IMG/VR virus record: IMGVR_UViG_3300050821_004154
Span: 1 to 24,885 of that record
Reading direction: 5' to 3' (one strand)
DNA: 24,885 nt
DNA from: a virus
This document shows, one piece after another, positions 3 through 20,040 of this stretch. Position 1 is the stretch's first letter. Each line of letters opens with the position of its first letter. Below the pieces are notes generated by a model that saw nothing but the letters and a program-made list of their open reading frames with translations, did not search any database and was not told the origin of the DNA. Both the position numbers and the translations under genes were made by a program.

Positions 3-1115
3 TTCATCACCAGACCAGAGCCGAAACGAGTCGTCCCCTGGCGAAGCCCCAGCGAAAAGCAACGATTCCTCTACTCCAACGATCCCGGATGCCTCGGGTT
101 GGAGCCTGTCCTAGACCTCAAGTCCGGCAACATCACCACCGGGAAGATGGCGATCGCCAAGCTCTATGGCAAGACCCGGAACGAGGCAATCATTGCCCTC
201 GGGAAGTTGAACAAAATTGATGAAACACTTTCGACTTTCGCGAAGTCTAGCATGTCTGCTGTTACTCGGATGTACCCTCACTTCAACGTGCATGGTACCG
301 CGAGCGGACGACTATCCTCGTCAGACCCGAATCTCCAGAACATTCCCGAATCGGTACGTTGCATTTACGTGCCTAGTCATGCCGACTGGAAAATCGTCGA
401 TGTCGATTACTCCAACATTGAGAATCGCCTCACTGCGATCTTGGCCGGAGATACAGAACGTCTTAGAAAGTATGAGGACCCGAAACATTCGGATTATAAG
501 GTGCTGGTTAACCGAGCCTATGGAATTCCCTATGATGAGATAATCAAGGACAACTCTCGCGAGGCACCTTACGGGAAGTGCAAAGCGATCGTGCTGGGGA
601 TCAACTACGGCCTCGGCGCTAAGAAGATCAGCAAGATGTATGACATGGACTTGAAGGAGGTTCATCACCTTTTAGACACATGGAAATCAGAGATCAAATT
701 AACGAGCGCGTGGCAGCAGAGGACGGCGGAGCAAGCAGGCCGCGAGGGACTCTTGACTACCCCGTTCGGACGGAAACGTTGGTTCTGGACCTCCAGTACC
801 TACACCGAGAGTTTGAGCTTTTTACCTCAAAGCTGCGCCGCCGATATAATCTTCCGAGCGATGCTTGGTTTGATGTACGAACGGATTGGGTGGCCTGTAG
901 AGAAGGTTCTAAAGACGGTTTCGATAGCGAAGAGTATACCATCAAATACGAATCTACTCCTTCAGGTCCACGACAGTCTAGTTTTCGAATCAGCGCCAGA
1001 CAAGGTCGAAGAGTTAGTTATCGCGTTGAAGACTGTGATGGAGCAGCCCTGGAAGGAACTCGGGGGCTACAAGATTCCGATCAGCGTAAAGGTAGGTGAC
1101 TCGTGGGGAGATTGA
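3..1115 (+). CDS. Family A DNA polymerase (PolA-like), C-terminal part, 5' end cut by window
   Basis: Phage replicative DNA polymerase of the E. coli Pol I/T7 family. The frame is open from the left edge, so the N-terminus (any 3'-5' exonuclease domain) lies outside the window; the TTG at 99 is not a real start. Visible in order: the TASGRLSSSDPNLQNIP template-contact region (nt about 297-347), motif A VDVDYSNIENR with the catalytic Asp (396-431), motif B K-x7-YG with KAIVLGINYG (582-611), and motif C QVHDSLVFE with the second catalytic Asp (about 966-992). Aligned by eye to Pol I, the 762 position in motif B is Leu (codon 594-596), the R754 position is Tyr, and motif C has HDS instead of HDE. 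Family assignment is firm; the consequences of these substitutions are inference. The next small ORF overlaps its end. Confidence 0.96.
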   Translation, partial: FITRPEPKRVVPWRSPSEKQRFLYSNDPGCLGLEPVLDLKSGNITTGKMAIAKLYGKTRNEAIIALGKLNKIDETLSTFAKSSMSAVTRMYPHFNVHGTASGRLSSSDPNLQNIPESVRCIYVPSHADWKIVDVDYSNIENRLTAILAGDTERLRKYEDPKHSDYKVLVNRAYGIPYDEIIKDNSREAPYGKCKAIVLGINYGLGAKKISKMYDMDLKEVHHLLDTWKSEIKLTSAWQQRTAEQAGREGLLTTPFGRKRWFWTSSTYTESLSFLPQSCAADIIFRAMLGLMYERIGWPVEKVLKTVSIAKSIPSNTNLLLQVHDSLVFESAPDKVEELVIALKTVMEQPWKELGGYKIPISVKVGDSWGD

Positions 1116-1717: not shown

Positions 1718-1832
1718 CCTCGATGGCCTTAATCCTGAAGACAAACTCAGAATAACTCAAGTGGGATTTCGTCAGTGGCTGGACGAGGCTGCTGACGAAC
1801 AGGAGCATCGATTTGGTCGGAGAGGTCTGTGA
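1656..1832 (+). CDS. Small hypothetical protein (58 aa)
   Basis: Not recognised. ATG at 1656 preceded by GGAG (1648-1651, short spacing); stop TGA at 1830-1832. The central part VIDLDGLNPEDKLRITQVGF and the acidic segment WLDEAADEQEHRF look like a folded, charged helical protein rather than random translation. It fills the otherwise unexplained gap between the 92-aa gene and the ATPase gene, overlapping the first by 62 bases and the second by 20. A TTG at 1686 is an alternative start. Confidence 0.55.
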   Translation: MVLKSKVYLPLIQTTGSPVIDLDGLNPEDKLRITQVGFRQWLDEAADEQEHRFGRRGL

Positions 1833-2967
1833 ATGTCTACCGAAAGAGAGCTGGTTTACAAGTTGGATGAAAGCATGGCCTCTGGCCGAATCCCCCCGAT
1901 CATACATATTGTTCTCGGGAATGGCGTGCCTTGGTGCGGCACTCGGCCGCAGAGTTTACTTTTCCTTGGATGTCCACAAGGTATACCCACTTTTGAATCT
2001 GCTGCTGATTGGTCCAAGTGGTATTGGGAAATCGACCGCGATGCGGGATATTGCGGTAAATCACCTGATTCCGCCTTTACCGGAAGACATCAAACCGAAT
2101 CTATTGACGGGCAAATCCACGAAGGAAGCGATCCATCAAGATCTCGTGGTAATGCCGAAGTCGATCATCTTAGCATCCGAGCTGGCAAATCTGTTCAGCA
2201 AGGAGAAGTACAACGAGGGGATGATTCCCTACATGACCGATCTCCTCGACCTGGCGCCAGCGAGAGTAAGGACAAAGTCTGGCGGGAATATGATTATCCA
2301 ACGACCGGAGTGCTGCGTGATGGGTGGATCGACGAAGCAATGGTTGCAAGACATGCTTCCGAGTACGGCCGGGGAAGGCGGCTTCTTACCGCGCTTCTTG
2401 ATAGTCAAAGAAGACTACAAGTTCCAGAGGATAGCCGATCCACGTCGGCACATGAATGATCAGCAACGAGCCGAACTGGCGACTGAGCGGGAGAAAGTGG
2501 TTTATGACTTCGTTAAACTCGTCCGAATCAACGAAGGACTTATCGACTTCGACGACTATGAAGCCAGCGACGCTTATACAGAATGGTATAACACCCTCAA
2601 CCCCGAAAGCGGAAGCCTTGCACCCTTTTACGCAAGAGCTGGTGCTCACGTCCTCCGTCTTAGTCTGCTTATTGCTTTGTCATGTTCACGTCAGGTTATC
2701 GTGGCTGATGATGTACGCGCTGGCATCTGTTTGTATACCTATGCCACTCAGAAGCTTGCTGATGTTATCATTCCGATGTCTCCTGAAGGTAAAAAAGCAT
2801 CGCGAATTATGGAAACCATTGGGAATATGGCCTTGAGTGGGACAGAGATTCGGAGGGCGATGCGGAATTATTGCGGGAGTCAAGATGTTGATCGGATGTT
2901 GGGCGATCTAGTGAGGGACCGAGAGTTGATATTAGAAGAAACTCTTTATAGAAAGCCGATGCACTGA
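1813..2967 (+). CDS. AAA/P-loop ATPase, DUF3987-like primase-associated helicase family
   Basis: Likely replication helicase or primase-associated ATPase acting with the PolA-type polymerase. The protein (384 aa) has Walker A GPSGIGKST (residues 67-75), a Walker B-like strand SIILASELANLF (117-128), a sensor-like CCVMGGSTKQWL (168-178), and a possible arginine finger in GGFLPRFLIV (R194). The C-terminus (about 325-384) looks like a winged helix, including the stretch SGTEIRRAMRNY. The start is TTG at 1813 because a clean AGGAG lies seven bases upstream (1801-1805) and no ATG in this frame has a comparable site. The stop overlaps the next ATG as TGATG. Family name is by resemblance; P-loop ATPase is firm. 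Confidence 0.85.
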   Translation: MVGEVCECLPKESWFTSWMKAWPLAESPRSYILFSGMACLGAALGRRVYFSLDVHKVYPLLNLLLIGPSGIGKSTAMRDIAVNHLIPPLPEDIKPNLLTGKSTKEAIHQDLVVMPKSIILASELANLFSKEKYNEGMIPYMTDLLDLAPARVRTKSGGNMIIQRPECCVMGGSTKQWLQDMLPSTAGEGGFLPRFLIVKEDYKFQRIADPRRHMNDQQRAELATEREKVVYDFVKLVRINEGLIDFDDYEASDAYTEWYNTLNPESGSLAPFYARAGAHVLRLSLLIALSCSRQVIVADDVRAGICLYTYATQKLADVIIPMSPEGKKASRIMETIGNMALSGTEIRRAMRNYCGSQDVDRMLGDLVRDRELILEETLYRKPMH

Positions 2968-3725
2968 TGGCCCTTAGTAAGTATAGACAATTCGCTTTAG
3001 ACAACCAATTGTGTTTAGATTGTCATGCGCCTCGTGGTCCTGAGCGACAACGTTGCCCGGAATGTTTAAAGAAAGCTAATGATAGGCAAAAGTTGTACAA
3101 GAGCGGTCAGCCTGATTACATCAGAGCCAAAGCAAGGGAACGTCACCGACGTGTTCGAGAGCGCGTTCTGGCGAAATACGGAGGCTGTTGTCAGTGTTCA
3201 AACTGCAAGGTTTCAACTTATGAATTCTTGGCCATTGATCACAAACAAGGTGGAGGTTGTAAGGAACGTCGAGAAAAGAATTTTCCGAACGCGCAAAGTT
3301 TTTATAATTACCTAGATAAGCAACCCGTATTGAATACTTATCAAGTCCTTTGCCACAATTGCAATTCTGCCAAAGGTTATTACGGTACTTGCCCGCATCT
3401 CAAGGAGAACGAATGTCAAAACCAAAAACTTGGGTCTGCCTCTTCGACATCCATTACCCCAAGTATGATAAGCGAACCTTCAACGCCGCAATGCAGTTTA
3501 TCCGAGACAGCAAACCTGCTGGCATTTTACTCGGAGGCGATCAGCTCGACAATGAAGAAATTTCACACCACAATCGTAACAAACCCCTCTATAGGGAACG
3601 TGCTAGCTACCGACGAAACAGTGAAGGCTTCGATCGTGACATCCTCCGACCACTTGAAGAAGCTGTGGGACGCGGTGAAAAAGTATGGATCATCGGGAAC
3701 CACTGTGATTGGGAACGTCAACTGA
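2967..3725 (+). CDS. HNH endonuclease with N-terminal zinc finger; C-terminal tail doubtful
   Basis: DNA-cutting His-Me finger nuclease, probably a free-standing homing-type or recombination endonuclease. Residues 16-33 form a CxxC...CxxC zinc knuckle (C16, C19, C30, C33). Then comes a basic linker with KARERHRRVRERV, a second cysteine set (C74, C75, C77, C80), the catalytic region IDHKQGGG (D91, H92) and VLCHNCNSAKG (C129, H130, N131, C132, N133). The recognisable domain ends near residue 147 (about nt 3407). The remaining roughly 100 residues (Ser/Thr-rich) lie out of frame over the phosphoesterase gene and probably do not represent selected protein. ATG overlaps the previous stop (TGATG); no strong ribosome site. 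Confidence 0.85.
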   Translation: MALSKYRQFALDNQLCLDCHAPRGPERQRCPECLKKANDRQKLYKSGQPDYIRAKARERHRRVRERVLAKYGGCCQCSNCKVSTYEFLAIDHKQGGGCKERREKNFPNAQSFYNYLDKQPVLNTYQVLCHNCNSAKGYYGTCPHLKENECQNQKLGSASSTSITPSMISEPSTPQCSLSETANLLAFYSEAISSTMKKFHTTIVTNPSIGNVLATDETVKASIVTSSDHLKKLWDAVKKYGSSGTTVIGNVN

Positions 3726-4180
3726 TTGAAGAGAATCCGGAGCTTGAAGGAATTATTGAACGACCTGAACTTCTTAAATTAGATCAGCGCGGTTGGAAGG
3801 TTGTGCCATTGGGTCATGCCTATAAATTAGGCGAATTAAATGTGATTCACGGAGAAATTCTCACAGGAATCGGCAATCAAGCTGGTGCCTTTCCCGCTAA
3901 GAAAGCAATAGAATTTTACGCCGGCAATGTACTGGCGGGGCACACTCACGCGCCACAATCTTTCACCAAGATTTCTCCTGTGGAAGCAAAAAAGAAATAT
4001 ATGGCCTGGATATCTCCGATTGTCGGAGCCACCAACCCTGGCTACCTTCGCAACCGGCCAACTGCCTGGCTGAATGGCTTCACGATCGTTGAACTGCGGG
4101 ATAAGGGGTTCTTCAACCTCTATCCGGTGGTGGTGTTTGACGGGGAGTTTAGTTATGGCGGAAAGTTGTACAAAGGATAA
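3413..4180 (+). CDS. Calcineurin-like metallophosphoesterase
   Basis: Two-metal phosphoesterase (255 aa), by family a phosphatase, nuclease or nucleotide hydrolase; the substrate cannot be told. All signature blocks are present: FDIH (D12, H14), GGDQLDN (D43, D46), GNHCDWE (N96, H97), VIHGE (H146) and GHTHAPQ (H177, H179). The start is ATG at 3413 because AAGGAG (3402-3407) sits five bases upstream, the best ribosome site in the left arm; the frame is open further upstream but that part overlaps the HNH domain. Its stop TAA is also the first triplet of repeat copy 2. It overlaps the HNH reading frame by 313 bases. Confidence 0.93.
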   Translation: MSKPKTWVCLFDIHYPKYDKRTFNAAMQFIRDSKPAGILLGGDQLDNEEISHHNRNKPLYRERASYRRNSEGFDRDILRPLEEAVGRGEKVWIIGNHCDWERQLIEENPELEGIIERPELLKLDQRGWKVVPLGHAYKLGELNVIHGEILTGIGNQAGAFPAKKAIEFYAGNVLAGHTHAPQSFTKISPVEAKKKYMAWISPIVGATNPGYLRNRPTAWLNGFTIVELRDKGFFNLYPVVVFDGEFSYGGKLYKG

Positions 4181-4199
4181 CCCCGTTTATGCGAGGAGA
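4178..4199 (+). repeat. Bipartite repeat copy 2 (sense, bridging stop and start)
   Basis: TAACCCCGTTTATGCGAGGA. The first triplet is the stop of the phosphoesterase and the internal ATG is the start of the HD phosphohydrolase. Identical over 20 bases to copy 5. Confidence 0.92.
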
Positions 4200-4806
4200 T
4201 CAGGAATATATTCGAACCTATATAGGCCACAAATGCTGGCCATGTGATCCCCAGCCTGAAGATATCCACATCGAAGATATCGCTCATGCGCTTAGCCTGC
4301 TGTGTCGATTCACCGGGCACGTTCGCGAGTTCTACTCGGTCGGAGATCATAGTCTAAGGGTCTCCGAGTTGTGCTCGCCAGAGAACAAACTCTGGGGTTT
4401 GCTGCATGACGCGAGCGAGGCGTACTTGGCGGATGTGGCTCGACCCGTGAAGCGGAACGAAGTATTCGGGGCTTACTACAAGAAGGTAGAGGCGGGGTTG
4501 ATGGCCGTCATCGCCCAGAAGTTCAATCTGTCAATGCCTGAACCCCCGGAGGTTAAGACCTTTGACAACATCCTGCTTCGAACGGAGCAGCGAGACTTGA
4601 TGCCAGTCGCTAAAGACGGGCCAATAGGAGACAATGATAGATGGAAGGACTCGGTGGAACCGCTACCATACAGGCTAGTACCCAGGCCGCCGGAGGAAAC
4701 AGAGGAGTTGTTTCTAGATCAGTTCAAGCAGCTCAGCAAAAAGCCTCCAAGGTCCCAGCTTGGCAAGGAGTCGTGGCGTATTTCCCTAACGCCCTTCTTG
4801 CCGTAG
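4189..4806 (+). CDS. HD-domain phosphohydrolase (YfbR/nucleotidase-like)
   Basis: Predicted metal-dependent nucleotide or deoxynucleotide phosphohydrolase (205 aa) adjusting nucleotide pools during replication. The metal site is clear: DHS (H54), LLHDASEAYL (H73, D74) and FDNILLRTEQRDLM (D126). This architecture (IRTYIGH...IEDIAHALSLLCRFTGH) is common in phage and bacterial HD proteins related to YfbR, a fold also used by the dATPase DatZ of Z-genome phages. The ATG at 4189 lies inside repeat copy 2, eight bases after the phosphoesterase stop; the nearest purine-rich ribosome site (AAAGGA, 4173-4178) is eleven bases away. The last 166 bases overlap the next gene, and the conserved part ends near FLDQFKQL (about 4735). 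Confidence 0.9.
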   Translation: MRGDQEYIRTYIGHKCWPCDPQPEDIHIEDIAHALSLLCRFTGHVREFYSVGDHSLRVSELCSPENKLWGLLHDASEAYLADVARPVKRNEVFGAYYKKVEAGLMAVIAQKFNLSMPEPPEVKTFDNILLRTEQRDLMPVAKDGPIGDNDRWKDSVEPLPYRLVPRPPEETEELFLDQFKQLSKKPPRSQLGKESWRISLTPFLP

Positions 4807-5036
4807 CCGCGATTTCGAAGATGGGGGCTGAAAAGCACAATGGTGGCATATTGCCAACCAAGTGGCGAGATTATCCGGCGGAAGTTTATGCAGATGCTTT
4901 GGCAAGACATTTGTTTGATGAGAGTAAAGGTTATTACGATTCTGAAAGTGCTATGCTCCACGCTGGTCACCTTGCTTGGAATGCTTTGGCAAGATTAGAG
5001 AAATTACTGGAGAACATCCCACTTAAAGCTCAATAG
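4641..5036 (+). CDS. dATP/dGTP diphosphohydrolase-like protein (131 aa)
   Basis: Resembles the short phage domain annotated as dATP/dGTP diphosphohydrolase (I believe PF18909). The conserved pattern runs from KVPAWQGVVAYFPNALLAVA (37-56) through EKHNGG (64-69), W75, DALARHL (85-91) and YYDSESAMLHAGHLAWNALARLEKL (98-122). The histidines H90, H107 and H110 and acids E102 and D100 are candidate metal ligands. The ATG at 4641 has AGGAG (4626-4630) ten bases upstream. The first about 36 residues overlap the HD gene in another frame and look unconserved (Ala/Gln-rich). Last gene of the rightward operon, directly before the terminator. Enzymatic role is inferred from the family. Confidence 0.8.
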   Translation: MEGLGGTATIQASTQAAGGNRGVVSRSVQAAQQKASKVPAWQGVVAYFPNALLAVAAISKMGAEKHNGGILPTKWRDYPAEVYADALARHLFDESKGYYDSESAMLHAGHLAWNALARLEKLLENIPLKAQ

Positions 5037-5055
5037 ACGTTAGCGTCGCAACAAA

Positions 5056-5080
5056 AAAGCCCCCAGAATCTGGGGGCTTT
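5056..5080. terminator. Bidirectional rho-independent terminator
   Basis: An 8-bp GC stem (5059-5066 GCCCCCAG pairing with 5070-5077 CTGGGGGC, loop AAT) is extended by three A-U pairs. Six A before it give a U run for leftward transcripts, and TTTCGTGTTT follows for rightward ones. It lies between the converging last genes of the early and late operons, exactly where both need to stop. Confidence 0.93.
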
Positions 5081-5097
5081 CGTGTTTCTAGCTGCTG

Positions 5098-5412
5098 CTA
5101 CAGCTGAAGCTTAAATGGGTTGAAGTCTTTTTCGACTAGTTCTCGTTCATCAAGGATTCGATAAAAGCGGCGACCATATTCAATGATGGTTTCAATGCTA
5201 GTCTTCTTCCAACCCTTTTTGATCAACCACTGCTTGAATTCCAGGACATCGGAACGGAATATGTCGCGAGGCTTTCTATCTGGGCCAAAGAACTTTATGA
5301 AGGTTTCGTAGGCCTTGGCCGCCCACATCCAAGTGCCGCGCTTCTTGTACCAGTACTGCGATTCCCAGAGGAGTTGGAGGTCGCGAAGTGATGGATCAGG
5401 AGGAAGGATCAT
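5098..5412 (-). CDS. Orphan tyrosine-recombinase core-binding (SAM-like) domain protein
   Basis: A 104-aa protein resembling the N-terminal DNA-binding domain of phage integrases. It has a helix YWYKKRGTWMWAAKAYETFI (20-39), then FFGPDRKPRDIFRSDVLEFKQWL (41-63), GWKKTSIETIIEYGRRFYRIL (67-87) and a terminal NPFKLQL. No catalytic domain (R...HxxR...Y) follows: the gene stops at 5098 and the terminator starts about 20 bases later. It may bind DNA on its own, for example as a regulator or a directionality or packaging factor, or be a remnant. No good ribosome site precedes the ATG; a 10-bp hairpin (5422-5453) sits just upstream. It is last in the late operon. Fold call is by pattern only. Confidence 0.65.
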   Translation of the reverse strand: MILPPDPSLRDLQLLWESQYWYKKRGTWMWAAKAYETFIKFFGPDRKPRDIFRSDVLEFKQWLIKKGWKKTSIETIIEYGRRFYRILDERELVEKDFNPFKLQL

Positions 5413-5421
5413 AAATGGATA

Positions 5422-5453
5422 AAGGGCCGATTAGATTGATGTCATCGGCCCTT
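5422..5453 (-). other. Perfect 10-bp inverted repeat upstream of the integrase-like gene
   Basis: AAGGGCCGAT (5422-5431) pairs perfectly with ATCGGCCCTT (5444-5453) around a 12-base loop. In the late transcript it lies between the 1629-aa gene and the 104-aa gene, ending nine bases before the ATG at 5412. It could attenuate, protect or process the RNA, or bind protein as DNA. There is no U run, so it is not a standard terminator. An AGGAGG (5474-5479 on this strand) lies upstream of it with no long ORF attached. Confidence 0.75.
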
Positions 5454-5511
5454 AGTCAGGTGGTCACAGTAGGACCTCCTATTAGTTTAGACCCTCCGAA
5501 AGATCAAAAGG

Positions 5512-8500
5512 TTACTGACCAGTAAAATCTTTCATAAACTGTGCCCGTTGCTCGGGCAGAAGCCGGGTGGTGTCCAGTTCCTTGCGGGCGTAGGCGTTCA
5601 AGATAGCGCGCTCCTTCGGAGTCGCCTTGGCGAACACCTTGGCTTTCAGCTCAACTGGCAGGCGATAGTAGTCGCGGTATATCTCTGGCATCATGGCAAG
5701 CTTGATAGCCGTCTGAAGGTCCTTGGGATTCATCTGACCCGAGAGAATTAACTCCCGAACTCGTTTGGCATCGAGGCGATTTTCTGAAATGTCCTGAACG
5801 ATTTCTTGAATATGATGGCTAGTGATGTCATTTGGGTTGGAGCCAAGAGCGTATTGATGAGCTAAGGCAGCAGCATCGGAACGATATTTTGAACGAGTAA
5901 TTCCGAAACTAGACATTGCGCCAGTCTCTAAACGATCTACGGTGCGACCTTCGCCTCCGCTTCGTGTAAAACTTTGAAGTGGAATCGGTACTACACCTTT
6001 GACAAAGTCAATGGCTTGACCTCCGAGATCACGCTTGCGACCGAAGTCGTCCTTGCCGAACATCATCTCACCGAGAGGCTTAGTCATTGTTGGGTTAAGA
6101 CGATGCATTACAAAGCTCGAAGGTTCCTGAAGTAAGTTCCAAATATCTCCTGGTAAGCTACGCATTTTATATTCGTAGCCTTTAATCACGAGAGAAAACG
6201 GGCGGTCCCAATGCGGATCATCGTCCAGGACTTGATTTACAACACGAGCACTGACATACAATCCAACGGCGCCTCGAATCAATGCGGCTTGTTGTTCACG
6301 GCCAAAGGGGGTTAAAGCTTGGCCCGCAAAGCGAGCCCGAGCTTCAAGGAAATCTGGCGCAAGGAAAGCGAAACGAAGTAAAGCCTGTGTTTGAGGGCTA
6401 CGGCCCATTGTGATGTAATTCAGTTCTCCGAAGGCAGCATTGGCTTGATTTGAAGTAATTTCTGCAATTTGATTCGTGGTGATCTTACCAGCTTGAATAG
6501 CTCCGTCAAAACGTTTCAGATTCCGATCATAAGCTTCGACTGCCATTTGAGTTTTCAAACGCGGAATATAATCCCCGAAAAGATAGTCACTGTATTTCTG
6601 GAGATACTGGCCTAGTCCGGGGACTTTTCCAGCGAGACCTCCCGCCGCAAGACCTTCATCGAAAGCGGCAGCCGGATCGAAGTTTCCGATTACAAGGCCA
6701 TGATCTAAAAGCCTCCCCACGCGAGGATCGGCCAGATCAATTGCCTTCGGATTGAAAGGATTAACTTTGTGAAATAAAGCGTGCGTACCTTCTTGAATCT
6801 GGTGAAAAGGAGACATCGACAAGAGCGTAGCTTTGAAGAATCCCGAGCCTTTCAAAAGGGCGGTTTGAACTGGATGAGCCTGCGCCCACTTGCCTCGATT
6901 GATAACATTGTCAAGCTTCTGCGCATGATCAGGGTGAACCCGGAGGTCCCCCTTCATGAAGATGGGAGTCCCGTCAGCATCCTTTGTAGCCCAGGTCCAC
7001 TTAGTGAGAGCGGAGTGATCCAGAAGGCGGTAATCACCTGTCTCATCAGGGCCGGCTTTCGGGTAGATTACATACGCGGATGGCTTCTCACCCGTCTCAG
7101 GTGATTGGCTGCCAGTTTCATAAATTGCTTTGCCAGTGCCGGAGGGAGCGACAATTGGACGACCATCTTTGGCGAGGCCGGCAGATAAGTCTCGAACAAG
7201 AGTTCGAGAAGCTATCGCCTGATTGAATGCTTTGTCCCATGAGGCCACGAGGAAGCCAATGTCCTTGTTAACAGGAGTGTGACCAGCTTGTTCCCCCTCG
7301 AAGTAAGATTCGAATACCCGGCGTTTAGCGGCATTGAAATCAGTCTTCAAAAGACCAGAGCGATGCAGAACTGAAAAGAAGTTTTGCATGTTCTGTTGGT
7401 CTTTGGGCTTCCAAATTTGCGGAACATAATTATCAAGTCCGTCCTTAAGGACATCCATCTGGATGGCCTCTTTGAGGCGGCGTTCGAAATGGTTTTGAAT
7501 AAAACCGGCAAGATTCTTTTCATCGTCGGTCAGTGCGCGAGCGGCCTCATAGCCCGCACGAAGGGAACCCTTCGAACGAGTAGCTCGATCAGCTAGAATC
7601 GCATCATCGCCCCCGGCTTGAATCCAATTCGTAATGGCCTCGCGTCGGCGAGGCTCGGGGAGTTTCTCCTTGATGGCCTTAGTGAATTGACGCAATTCCC
7701 AAACGGAACGATTCAAGGCTCCACTGAAACGACCAATCGAAGTATTATAATCGCCTTGCTCTGGTGGTCGCATGTACATGTCTTTCAGGGCTACGGCTTG
7801 CGCGCCCATCCGGCCAATAGACATCTGAACCTTATCCCAACCTTCGGTGATGGTTTTATCCAGACGTTCTGCGAGACGCATTCGACTATCATCCGGAGGG
7901 ACTGCTTTCATCGAAGATTCAAGTTTTGCGGTTAGATCATCGAGGGCATTGACGCTTTGGCGAGGCGGTCTGGGTTTCTTGTCCGGGAACATCGTCCAGA
8001 ACCCACGCTCGTCCTTGAGGTTGAACATGCGTTCCAGTTCTTCGCGAGCGGGGTCTTTAATGCCAGGAATTTCAGGAGTACCAACAGGCCCGGCTTCCAC
8101 CCCCTCAAATCTCGCAGCCGTCAATGTACGGCCTTGATTATCACGAGAAAATCGCAAGGCTATCCCGTCGCCACGATCATTCTTAAAATATTTTATTAGC
8201 TCGCCGTTGGTTCCGGTTTCTGCGCGATCAAGCCGAAATCCGTGTTCTCTGATTGTCCGAACCGTCTCGTAACTATCTTTTGGATTGATTACTTCCCGAA
8301 GTAATTTACCATCGAAGGCTGCTCGCTGATTTTGTTCAGAGCGTTCTACGTCCGGATGTTTTGACAGGGCCCGATCAACCATGTCATGCAACCCGCCAAG
8401 CAAACTATCCGCCTTGCGGTCCAGCTCTGCATTCGGTTCGAGACGCTCCTCAATTGGAGACTTCTCCGGCGTCTTCGCAAACTCCGCCCCTCCCGCCATT

Positions 8501-18425: not shown

Positions 18426-19088
18426 TTATCTGATCACTCCCATACGATTACCGGCTTTGAGTTGCTGATACAATTGAAACCACGACATTGCTTCTTGCTG
18501 ACGACCAATATAAGCCATAGCTAGCCAGTTAACTCCTGCACATATTACATCCTTACCATCATCGGGAACAATCAAGGCCGCCGTTAAACTGGACAGTGTA
18601 GAAACTAATTTCTCATAAGTAACACTAAGAGTAGAAGTATATGCGGTCGAAAGAGGCGCAGGTCGAACAATAAATGTAGTTGGCCCGACAAAACGAAAGT
18701 ATTCGGGAGTTCCCCCAAACTTATAAGCCTGGTGAGGAAGAGGGGCCTGTTGAGCCGGACGCCCTTGAGATTCATCAACTCCTGCCGCAGTGGGACTTGG
18801 TTGATCAAGATCGACATCTGCCGGAGTTAAGCTTTGATTAAAGGTAGTATCGAAAACACTTACAATTCGACGAATTGGAGTAGTCGGCGTTAAAGTATAA
18901 GCATTCTGCTCGGCAATAGTAGTAACAAAGGTTGTAGTCAAGTTCTGATTTACATACAAAGTAGTATGCAATACATCCTTATGAACTCGGTCCACCCAGT
19001 TCATAATAGTGACAGCATCATTACCAGAGTTCGAAAGAACCTGTCGAGTATCTACGTTAACTGCATTTACAATATCTTGAACTATCAT
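18426..19088 (-). CDS. Adaptor (tail tubular A-like) protein, paralog 1 (220 aa)
   Basis: Compact version of the adaptor fold. The N-terminal helices are DIVNAVNVDTRQVLSNSG and IMNWVDRVHKDVLHTTLY, followed by a beta region (50-170) and the C-terminal helical block VICAGVNWLAMAYIGRQQEAMSWFQLYQQL (181-210) shared with the following gene. Likely forms the ring beneath the portal. Overlaps the histidine phosphatase stop (ATGA). Two neighbouring paralogs suggest a duplicated or hetero-oligomeric ring. Confidence 0.82.
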   Translation of the reverse strand: MIVQDIVNAVNVDTRQVLSNSGNDAVTIMNWVDRVHKDVLHTTLYVNQNLTTTFVTTIAEQNAYTLTPTTPIRRIVSVFDTTFNQSLTPADVDLDQPSPTAAGVDESQGRPAQQAPLPHQAYKFGGTPEYFRFVGPTTFIVRPAPLSTAYTSTLSVTYEKLVSTLSSLTAALIVPDDGKDVICAGVNWLAMAYIGRQQEAMSWFQLYQQLKAGNRMGVIR

Positions 19089-19666
19089 CGACCGTCCCAG
19101 ATCATAATATACTTCCAGTCTAACCCCGTTTTGGCGAGGAATGTCACGCTGGCCTCGGGAGTTATCTCCTGAACATCCCCTACGGGGTTGCCCCCAATGA
19201 TGCTTTGTAATGCATTGATATTTCTAGAATGCGTTGTAATGCAAACCGCTTCGTCTTTAGCCTCGACATAGGCCATAACTTTCTGAAGGAAATCCTGCCA
19301 CCGGAGGTAAAACCTCCGATAAGATTCGCCATGCGGAGCCTTGATGTCCGGGTAGTTCTTTAGATATTCCATCTTGTCTTTGACTTGGCGGGCCTCCTTG
19401 CCCATCAAATCTCCGAGGTTCCAAGGCAGCGCCCCGTTGTTCGTCGTGACTCGTGTGTCGCCATGACTGATCATTTCAGCCACTCGGAGGGCTCGCTGGA
19501 GCGGGGAACTGATAATTCGGGAGAATCGGAGGTTCTCTTTCTCCAAGAATTTGACCGTCCGTTCGATCCGTTCGACTCCCTCTCGGTCGAGAGGCGGATT
19601 CAAAAGGGCATCGACCTTGGTGTCATAGGTCGTGTTGCCGTGGCGAATCAAATAAATTCCTCGCAT
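19085..19666 (-). CDS. Histidine phosphatase superfamily (phosphoglycerate mutase-like)
   Basis: Phosphatase of 193 aa. The RHG catalytic motif sits at the very start (RGIYLIRHGNT, H9), SSPLQRALRVAEMI supplies the second arginine, GESYRRFYLRW the acid region, and CITTHSRNI the second catalytic His. Substrate unknown; nucleotide or sugar phosphates are typical. The start is taken as the ATG at 19666, giving the usual motif-at-residue-8 spacing; the frame is open upstream but overlaps the lysin gene. No Shine-Dalgarno precedes it; instead the ATG lies inside repeat copy 5, and copy 4 in inverted orientation encodes part of its C-terminus (TFLAKTGLDW). An unusual gene to find between capsid and adaptor genes. 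Confidence 0.9.
   Translation of the reverse strand: MRGIYLIRHGNTTYDTKVDALLNPPLDREGVERIERTVKFLEKENLRFSRIISSPLQRALRVAEMISHGDTRVTTNNGALPWNLGDLMGKEARQVKDKMEYLKNYPDIKAPHGESYRRFYLRWQDFLQKVMAYVEAKDEAVCITTHSRNINALQSIIGGNPVGDVQEITPEASVTFLAKTGLDWKYIMIWDGR
19121..19140 (+). repeat. Bipartite repeat copy 4 (antisense, end of histidine phosphatase gene)
   Basis: TAACCCCGTTTTGGCGAGGA, identical to copy 1. It is 36 bases inside the end of the leftward histidine phosphatase gene and forms an inverted pair with copy 5 at the gene's start. Confidence 0.88.
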
Positions 19667-19677
19667 AAACGGGGTTA
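19658..19677 (-). repeat. Bipartite repeat copy 5 (sense, bridging stop and start)
   Basis: On the minus strand TAACCCCGTTTATGCGAGGA, identical to copy 2. It contains the stop of the Tlde1-like gene and the ATG of the histidine phosphatase gene. Confidence 0.92.
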
Positions 19678-20040
19678 GGACGTGACGGTTAGATCGGTAT
19701 CGCCAGAGGAGGCAATCAGGTTTCGAAGGGGTCGTCCAAGGATAATGCAACCATCTGAGGCTGAATGATTCATAGCTGGGTTATCACCATGAATGAAAAA
19801 AGCCGATCGGCCAAACATCGTGTTGGTTGGCGATGGAGTTAAGGGCATCGCGAATTTCCCTACTTCATTGTCATCACGAGGTTGACCGATCGTATAGTTG
19901 CCTTGCGGAAGTGGACCCACGTCCTTGACGTTGCACATGGCGGGGTTGTTTAGGCCGTCGCCATGTCCGGAGTAACCAAGGCCGGCTTGGTTACCTTCGG
20001 CATCCAACAACGTTCCGGACGTGATTTTAAAAGTCCACAT
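19675..20040 (-). CDS. Tlde1-like (DUF2778) L,D-transpeptidase/carboxypeptidase, candidate lysin
   Basis: Short 121-aa enzyme: FKITSGTLLDAEGNQAGLGY, YSGHGDGLNNP, GPLPQGNYTI (42-51), FGRSAFFIHGD (76-86, H84) and SASDGCIILG (93-102, catalytic Cys98). This is the Tlde1 fold known from type VI effectors that cleave or exchange peptidoglycan stem peptides. Here it most likely acts as the phage's endolysin or a virion-associated cell-wall enzyme. No signal peptide, so export would need a holin (candidate at 12946-13149). ATG overlaps the preceding stop (TAATG); its own stop TAA is part of repeat copy 5. Confidence 0.85.
   Translation of the reverse strand: MWTFKITSGTLLDAEGNQAGLGYSGHGDGLNNPAMCNVKDVGPLPQGNYTIGQPRDDNEVGKFAMPLTPSPTNTMFGRSAFFIHGDNPAMNHSASDGCIILGRPLRNLIASSGDTDLTVTS

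Follow-up and report, generated by a model that had tools for sequence, protein, structure and literature searches.

Paired Leu762 and Tyr734 in a phage family A DNA polymerase of a His762 clade: a candidate compensatory exchange at the dNTP site

The window, which is the whole 24,885-nucleotide stretch of viral DNA analysed here, begins with the 3' part of a phage polymerase gene (Table 1). The encoded enzyme carries Leu at position 762 and Tyr at position 734 (E. coli numbering). These two residues probably form a compensatory pair at the dNTP site of a working polymerase, within a clade whose O-helix has been rebuilt. Several hundred phage enzymes were compared, and the outcome suggests that Leu is tolerated at 762 through a joint change to Tyr at 734, a second position that touches the nucleotide. 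The dNTP-binding O-helix of the clade appears to have been rebuilt with His762, joined in most members by Tyr754. Within the window's small subgroup, His762 would have been exchanged for Leu jointly with the exchange of His734 for Tyr, and Tyr734 and Leu762 would act as one functional unit. The side chain responsible for placing the sugar and phosphates of the dNTP, bulky and with a hydroxyl group, would thus come from 734 and not from 762. Leu would thereby become tolerable at 762, with Tyr734 doing some of what the lost residue did. What we observe directly are the residues, how they nest in the tree, and a near-perfect Leu762-Tyr734 pairing across several lineages. We infer that the enzyme is catalytically active, that 734 compensates directly for 762, and that the corresponding atomic contacts are made.

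Table 1. Positions of the polymerase residues and neighbouring genes in the window
Feature	Position	Strand	Remarks
polA 3' part, family A DNA polymerase domain	3..1115	+	370 aa; 5' end outside window
Motif A DYSNIENR	405..428	+	D705 and steric gate E710 equivalents retained
Tyr codon TAT at His734 equivalent	495..497	+	proposed Leu762 partner
Tyr codon TAC at Arg754 equivalent	570..572	+	placed by alignment to clade
Motif B KAIVLGINYG	582..611	+	K758 to G767 equivalents
K758-equivalent codon	582-584	+	
Leu codon CTG at Phe762 equivalent	594-596	+	
Tyr766-equivalent codon	606-608	+	
Motif C HDS	969..977	+	D882 codon 972-974; Ser883 codon 975-977
DUF3987 / phage helicase-primase-like gene	1813..2967	+	PF13148, 65 bits; phrog_5311 helicase, 71.9 bits
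Stand-alone core-binding (SAM-like) tyrosine recombinase domain, no catalytic domain	5098..5412	-	weak matches

The product of the first reading frame matches PF00476 (DNA_pol_A) with 152 bits against a cut-off of 34.3 in a Pfam search. The catalytic Asp pair, K758, R668, and the steric gate E710 are all present. The motif B Arg754 is missing, and both the profile and the fold still match; its loss makes the enzyme a variant of family A, not a non-member. An AlphaFold model made from a 29-sequence clade alignment (mean pLDDT 88.6) has the right-hand Pol I fold, and its residues 189-201, among them the counterparts of Tyr754 and Leu762, form one helix. The top 30 Foldseek matches listed are mostly Pol I structures of Taq and Bacillus, with TM values of 0.74-0.78 referred to the query. 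The DUF3987 gene that follows is likely a replication partner of the polymerase.

A preliminary description of the window had reported Leu at 762 and Tyr at the Arg754 position, and both readings stand. A phmmer comparison with Taq pairs the Arg of that enzyme with the R in 'SREAPYGKCK' by means of a four-residue shift. Despite this result, Tyr is the residue that sits in the Arg754 place, because three clade members (L048, L066, and L018) have an Arg exactly four residues ahead of K758, where the other members have Tyr. Among the clade rows listed, the upstream Arg of SREAPY occurs only in the window's three-member subgroup, and a DpoZ-like insertion that conserves an Arg was rejected, as this upstream Arg is not conserved across the clade. 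No conserved Arg was found restored nearby in the alignment; a Lys or Arg lies one to three residues ahead of K758 in 52 of 68 Tyr754 matches. Sequencing error is ruled out because two relatives (79% and 78% identity) carry the same residue pattern as the window, Leu762 included. A second change, the Tyr that replaces Pol I His734, had been overlooked.

The clade to which the enzyme belongs is characterized by His at 762. An IMG/VR scan with alignment yielded 35 loci at 33-79% identity, among the best 80 of 266 relatives; a first scan had yielded 17 loci, mostly on the same contigs. In the clade alignment, which includes the contig of L068, every locus except the window's two nearest relatives has His762, and this residue is also found in the remoter Microcystis phage Mel-JY34, Manatee Spring phage MW202489, and Desulfofustis phage LS06-2018-MD01. 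A maximum-likelihood tree was calculated from 64 sequences and 349 columns, with positions 754, 762, 765-767, and 883 removed and 734 kept, and with seven duplicate, truncated, or intein-bearing rows omitted. Ultrafast bootstrap support is 100 for the Leu762 trio (the window, L035, and L036) and 100 for this trio together with five His762 sisters. The next two nodes outward have support of 99 and 96, and all remaining members are His762 enzymes. The window does not form a monophyletic group with other Leu762 polymerases and is nested among His762 enzymes; the tree indicates that its Leu762 arose separately, inside the His762 clade. Elsewhere in the clade, one group has Arg in place of Tyr766, and a second group has Gly or Ala there.

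Such enzymes may have been missed by an earlier survey. As reported for Keown 2022, only sequences with F, L, or Y at 762 were retained (PMC9069017), and a sizeable group of His762 phage polymerases would be dropped by a screen of this kind. His762 in phage PolA was not found in PMC main texts, among the matches listed. It is present in 75 of the 217 clusters that we sampled, a figure that does not measure abundance, since His762 enzymes served as queries for part of the sample. The complete polymerase of one relative, L004 (8663-11137), is 825 aa long and has an N-terminal uracil-DNA-glycosylase superfamily domain (PF03167, 45.5 bits) upstream of a 3'-5' exonuclease domain (PF01612, 26.8 bits); a literature search for a fusion of this type in SPO1 gave no paper. 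In L018/L068 (IMGVR_UViG_3300047462_000272, 3027-6416), the polymerase reading frame is 1130 aa, and motif B holds, by eye, an intein-like insert of ~300 aa between HGC and DGAMG.

The pairing of 734 with 762 was examined in a sample from five further scans (best 80 loci each at most) and annotated phages, with positions read off a profile anchored to E. coli numbering. Matches were obtained in 453 of 455 sources, giving 467 in all. Of these, 439 passed a filter for D705, Lys or Arg at 758, D882, and readable positions. Among the 28 that were dropped, 12 show both positions, and all 12 fit the pattern described below (given as 762-734: His-His 7, Leu-Tyr 4, Phe-His 1). Within the filtered set, Leu762 is accompanied by Tyr734 in 119 of 119 matches and Phe762 by His734 in 117 of 117, while His762 is found with His734 (96) or Tyr734 (22). 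Tyr762 occurs in 85 matches, 53 of which align directly to His734. The other 32 have K, D, E, N, or R in the column and were taken as T7-like misalignments, because a D-x-H adjoins the column in 85 of 85; they were counted as His734 in the parsimony analysis and in the tally of distinct sequences.

Removal of redundancy leaves the pattern unchanged. At 80% identity there are 217 clusters (Leu-Tyr 32, Phe-His 82, His-His 61, His-Tyr 14, Tyr762 28), and the 381 distinct sequences comprise Leu-Tyr in 101 of 101, Phe-His in 110 of 110, His-His in 75, His-Tyr in 22, and Tyr762 in 73. Most Leu762 sequences were found by using Leu762 queries. A scan conducted after the rule was formed gave Leu-Tyr in 80 of 80 loci (best 80 kept; 41 clusters); its queries had Leu762, so that it informs only on the state of 734, and it may overlap the earlier set.

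At position 734, the window trio reads DYK, its sisters read EHK or EHR, and unrelated Leu762 enzymes share the Tyr. In 29 columns, the window group has a fixed residue that none of its five nearest His762 sisters carries. After 762 itself, 734 is the best match to the remaining Leu762 enzymes, with the window's state in 30 of 30 other Leu762 clusters and 14 of 185 non-Leu clusters. Column 742 is third (18 of 30 Leu762 clusters versus 16 of 169 non-Leu clusters), shifting toward the Leu762 state, and the rest differ by <0.1 between Leu762 and non-Leu762 clusters. Parsimony was applied to a 221-tip tree from which columns 734, 742, 754, 762-767, and 883 had been removed. Leu762 is gained four times on this tree (in the window group, in L287, in a large clade, and in an Enterococcus/Paenibacillus group), and each gain falls on a branch that also gains Tyr734, which has seven gains in total. 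On the window's branch, His762Leu occurs together with His734Tyr. Random placement of the seven Tyr734 gains over 439 branches would produce this agreement with a chance of ~2e-8, which is a rough figure. The largest Leu762 gain covers 26 tips, the L287 gain is a single sequence, and the deep nodes are weakly supported (0.08-0.5).

A universal rule is broken by the DpoZ of Vibrio phage phiVC8, the one DpoZ examined, which was sought deliberately as an exception. This enzyme has Leu762 (L455) with His734 (DLH), and thus Tyr734 is not strictly required by Leu762. DpoZ is not on the 221-tip tree; if it were added, the pairing would hold in four of five Leu762 lineages. Judged from these alignments, the pairing is strong, not absolute. 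A coupling of 734 with 762 was not found in PMC main texts, among the matches listed.

We take Taq H639 and T7 H506 to be the counterparts of position 734, and human Pol gamma H932 is presumably the counterpart of His734. In Taq, H639, R659, K663, and F667 are reported to touch the incoming dNTP (PMC6345897), and H506, R518, K522, and Y526 of T7 are described as hydrogen-bond donors that align the substrate (PMC5984650). The T7 change Y526L lowers activity by 97% and leaves the phage unable to complete its cycle (PMC13228545). Changes at 734 are also reported to be harmful: Taq H639Y alone has a k/kwt of 0.15 and incorporates 2,707 versus 5,986 nt per error (PMC11666352), and human Pol gamma H932Y has ~200-fold lower dNTP affinity (PMC4362329). 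A single change at either 734 or 762 is thus costly in these enzymes, which are built for the other state. The authors of the T7 study, published in 2026, infer in the first part of their Discussion that natural Leu enzymes carry compensating changes, none of which is named there, and the study leaves open which changes let natural Leu762 enzymes work (PMC13228545). The Tyr734 pairing offers a single, cheaply testable candidate for this compensation.

The preliminary description had also considered the loss of the motif B Arg unusual, and it is: Tyr754 occurs in none of 82 Phe762, 28 Tyr762, or 30 other Leu762 clusters. In contrast to this, it was right that motif C reads HDS but not that this is a further oddity, as Ser883 is common (93 of 217 clusters). 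Tyr754 is present in 42 of 217 clusters, of which 40 are among the 75 with His762 and two are the window group's own Leu762 clusters, so that all 42 belong to His762-derived lineages. Where His762 enzymes lose Arg754, the replacement is always Tyr, with about seven gains and three reversals by parsimony; in L250 there is a gap in the 754 column, and Tyr754 is uncertain. Two Phe762 clusters have Lys at 754. A non-aromatic residue at 766 is found in 13 of 217 clusters, all with His762 and 12 of them with Tyr754, and has two origins by parsimony. Because Tyr754 and a non-aromatic 766 are confined to His762-derived lineages, His762 seems to be a permissive state for both. The corresponding Arg of KlenTaq, R659, is among its least tolerant positions (PMC6345897), and natural enzymes that lack this supposedly non-mutable residue may aid polymerase engineering. 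Six loci (L045, L051, L052, L053, L062, and L064) have Arg instead of Tyr766 and a motif C that is back to HDE; they are without the Lys or Arg ahead of K758 that is usual in Tyr754 enzymes.

We give roughly even chances to a wider reading of these data, in which the sequences define an undescribed His762 superclade. In this superclade, His762 would make Arg754 dispensable (R754Y about seven times, with Tyr766 then lost twice), and Leu762 would be reached, both inside it and in other lineages, via a near-obligate exchange to Tyr734. Positions 734, 754, 762, and 766 would then form an evolvable dNTP module, and 762 would be a poor marker of lifestyle.

The published Leu762 clades (Leu I and Leu II; Nasko 2018, Keown 2022) have Leu762 in common with the window, and those Leu762 clades sampled here also have Tyr734. 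The window differs from the published clades in its separate origin within the His762 clade, in having Tyr754 and not Arg, and in its Ser883 and DUF3987 neighbour. An SF2 non-ring helicase as neighbour, a trait of the published Leu762 clades, was sought with one profile, PF00271, which matched 0 of 19 perhaps incomplete records of the family and 14 of 14 controls. Mel-JY34, MW202489, and the Desulfofustis phage resemble the window in their HDS motif C, and two of them, Mel-JY34 and the Desulfofustis phage, also have a DUF3987 or primase gene closely behind that for the polymerase. Unlike the window, all three phages keep Arg754 and have His762 in place of Leu; MW202489 combines Tyr734 with His762. 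The phiVC8 DpoZ shares Leu762 and Ser883 with the window, whereas its His734 and Phe766 are different. Its motif B Arg is reported to be kept structurally, ahead of an O-helix insertion, and Leu455 is named (PMC8599892). With the insertion, the span from R440 to K451 is 11 residues instead of 4, and an adenylosuccinate synthetase gene lies two genes from DpoZ. Taq has the fold of the window's model, and T7 gp5 and E. coli Pol I share the catalytic Asp pair, K758, and steric gate Glu. These three enzymes differ from the window in having Tyr or Phe762, His734 (T7 His506 being read as D-x-H), Arg754, and Glu883.

Other explanations of the pairing and of the altered active site were considered. 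Tyr734 and Leu762 might be mere clade markers fixed by drift, with a pairing that reflects shared ancestry and has no function. That most Leu762 tips fall under the single gain of 26 tips, on a tree whose deep branches are weak, fits this idea. However, the window's polymerase is 59-63% identical to two sisters that have His734 and His762, and 24-29% identical to four other Leu762 enzymes; despite this distance, Tyr734 is common to the window and the other Leu762 clusters. Moreover, among the window's other 27 group-specific residues, only that at 742 is clearly enriched in Leu762 clusters. We therefore regard drift as unlikely, and it is still the least improbable of these alternatives. Relaxation in a degenerate, dead, or accessory polymerase would account for the loss of a residue called non-mutable in Taq (PMC8599892), yet the equivalents of R668, D705, E710, K758, H881, and D882 are kept in every tabulated clade member, and the reading frame stays open across relatives at 33-79% identity. 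The replacement of Arg754 in His762 enzymes, about seven times and always by Tyr, bears no mark of decay either, and we consider this explanation the most improbable of all. Hardly more credible is adaptation to a non-standard base (2-aminoadenine) by a DpoZ-like polymerase, for which the genes at 4189-5036 would be DatZ and MazZ. These genes do have suitable matches, to an HD phosphohydrolase (phrog_318, 202.4 bits, 4189-4806) and to a dATP/dGTP diphosphohydrolase (PF18909, 59 bits, 4641-5036). The PurZ family, PF00709, was nevertheless matched in 0 of 18 records, several of them short fragments and the window's own partial, whereas 14 of 14 control genomes were positive. With the DpoZ model NF038380 (cut-off 500), the window scores 46.6 bits; of the gene, it contains the polymerase portion only. 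On these two profile results the idea of a Z-genome was set aside.

The preliminary description had linked Leu762 to slow, temperate-type replication and had taken an orphan integrase-like domain as relevant to lifestyle. An association of Leu762 with temperate phages is indeed in print, and concerns other Leu762 phages (PMC6302109); in the window, Leu762 is of separate origin, within the His762 clade. The orphan domain does exist, as a stand-alone N-terminal domain with weak similarities (Phage_int_SAM_4, 17.9 bits with a cut-off of 27; phrog_1 integrase, 20.1 bits). The Leu762 trio has the recombinase N-terminal domain only (window, 5098-5412, minus strand; G002/L003, 5030-5404, minus strand; G001/L002, 15954-16304, plus strand) and no catalytic domain. 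A complete integrase was sought with PF00589, which has no match in the window, G001, or G002, and matches all five nearest His762 sisters (0 of 3 versus 5 of 5; these are linear, perhaps incomplete records, and the sample is small). This contrast is opposite to the one expected if Leu762 marked temperate phages, although the presence of recombinase matches in the sisters might itself speak for a temperate background. Four sister matches (G018, G019, G020, and G004) are above the cut-off, and the one in G003 is below it and degenerate. The position of the stand-alone domain, with the early genes on one side and the large late gene on the other, is taken in both G004 and G003 by a longer recombinase gene. 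The G004 protein is 328 aa with a Phe where the catalytic Tyr is expected (STTCKF; by eye), and the degenerate G003 protein is 237 aa. In G018-G020, the matches are at a comparable distance, 4-7 kb downstream of polA, two each in G018 and G019 and one in G020.

Across the 19 records searched, matches to PF00589 were also obtained in the more distant G023 and G025 and not in nine other His762 records (G021, G022, G005, G006, G008, G024, G010, G014, and G026). The lack of a recombinase is therefore not special to Leu762 across the clade, and the contrast between Leu762 and His762 holds only against the five nearest sisters. The serine recombinase profile PF00239 matched 0 of 19 records, which, being linear, give no proof of absence, and the repressor profile HTH_3, the one used, matched 0 of 8 linear, perhaps incomplete records. 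A search of genome contigs for chromosomal (prophage) copies yielded two distant relatives, neither of them in the clade. All records used for lifestyle are linear and perhaps incomplete, the window's being a 24,885-base fragment. Leu762 carries no usable information about lysogeny here; the idea that it denotes slower replication of the temperate type, and that the integrase-like domain points to lysogeny, is quite improbable. In viral ecology, residue 762 is read as an indicator of how fast a polymerase works and of the lifestyle of its phage.

Several further features of these genomes were observed. The stand-alone domain has opposite orientations in the window and in L002, and precedes the large late gene in both. 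In G018 (55717-57486) and G019 (30342-32194), two tyrosine recombinase genes are adjacent and in opposite orientation. The window's reading frames at 4189-4806 and 4641-5036 overlap, forming a DatZ/MazZ-like pair without a PurZ match in the 18 records. The protein encoded at 2967-3725 (252 aa) contains CxxC pairs and the stretch CHNCN and resembles, by eye, an HNH-type endonuclease; it had no Pfam, PHROG, or NCBIfam match. Finally, a histidine-phosphatase-like protein is encoded within the late gene block (19085-19750, minus strand), and its closest match is to the alpha-ribazole phosphatase model TIGR03162, with 68.3 bits, under the cut-off of 162.9.
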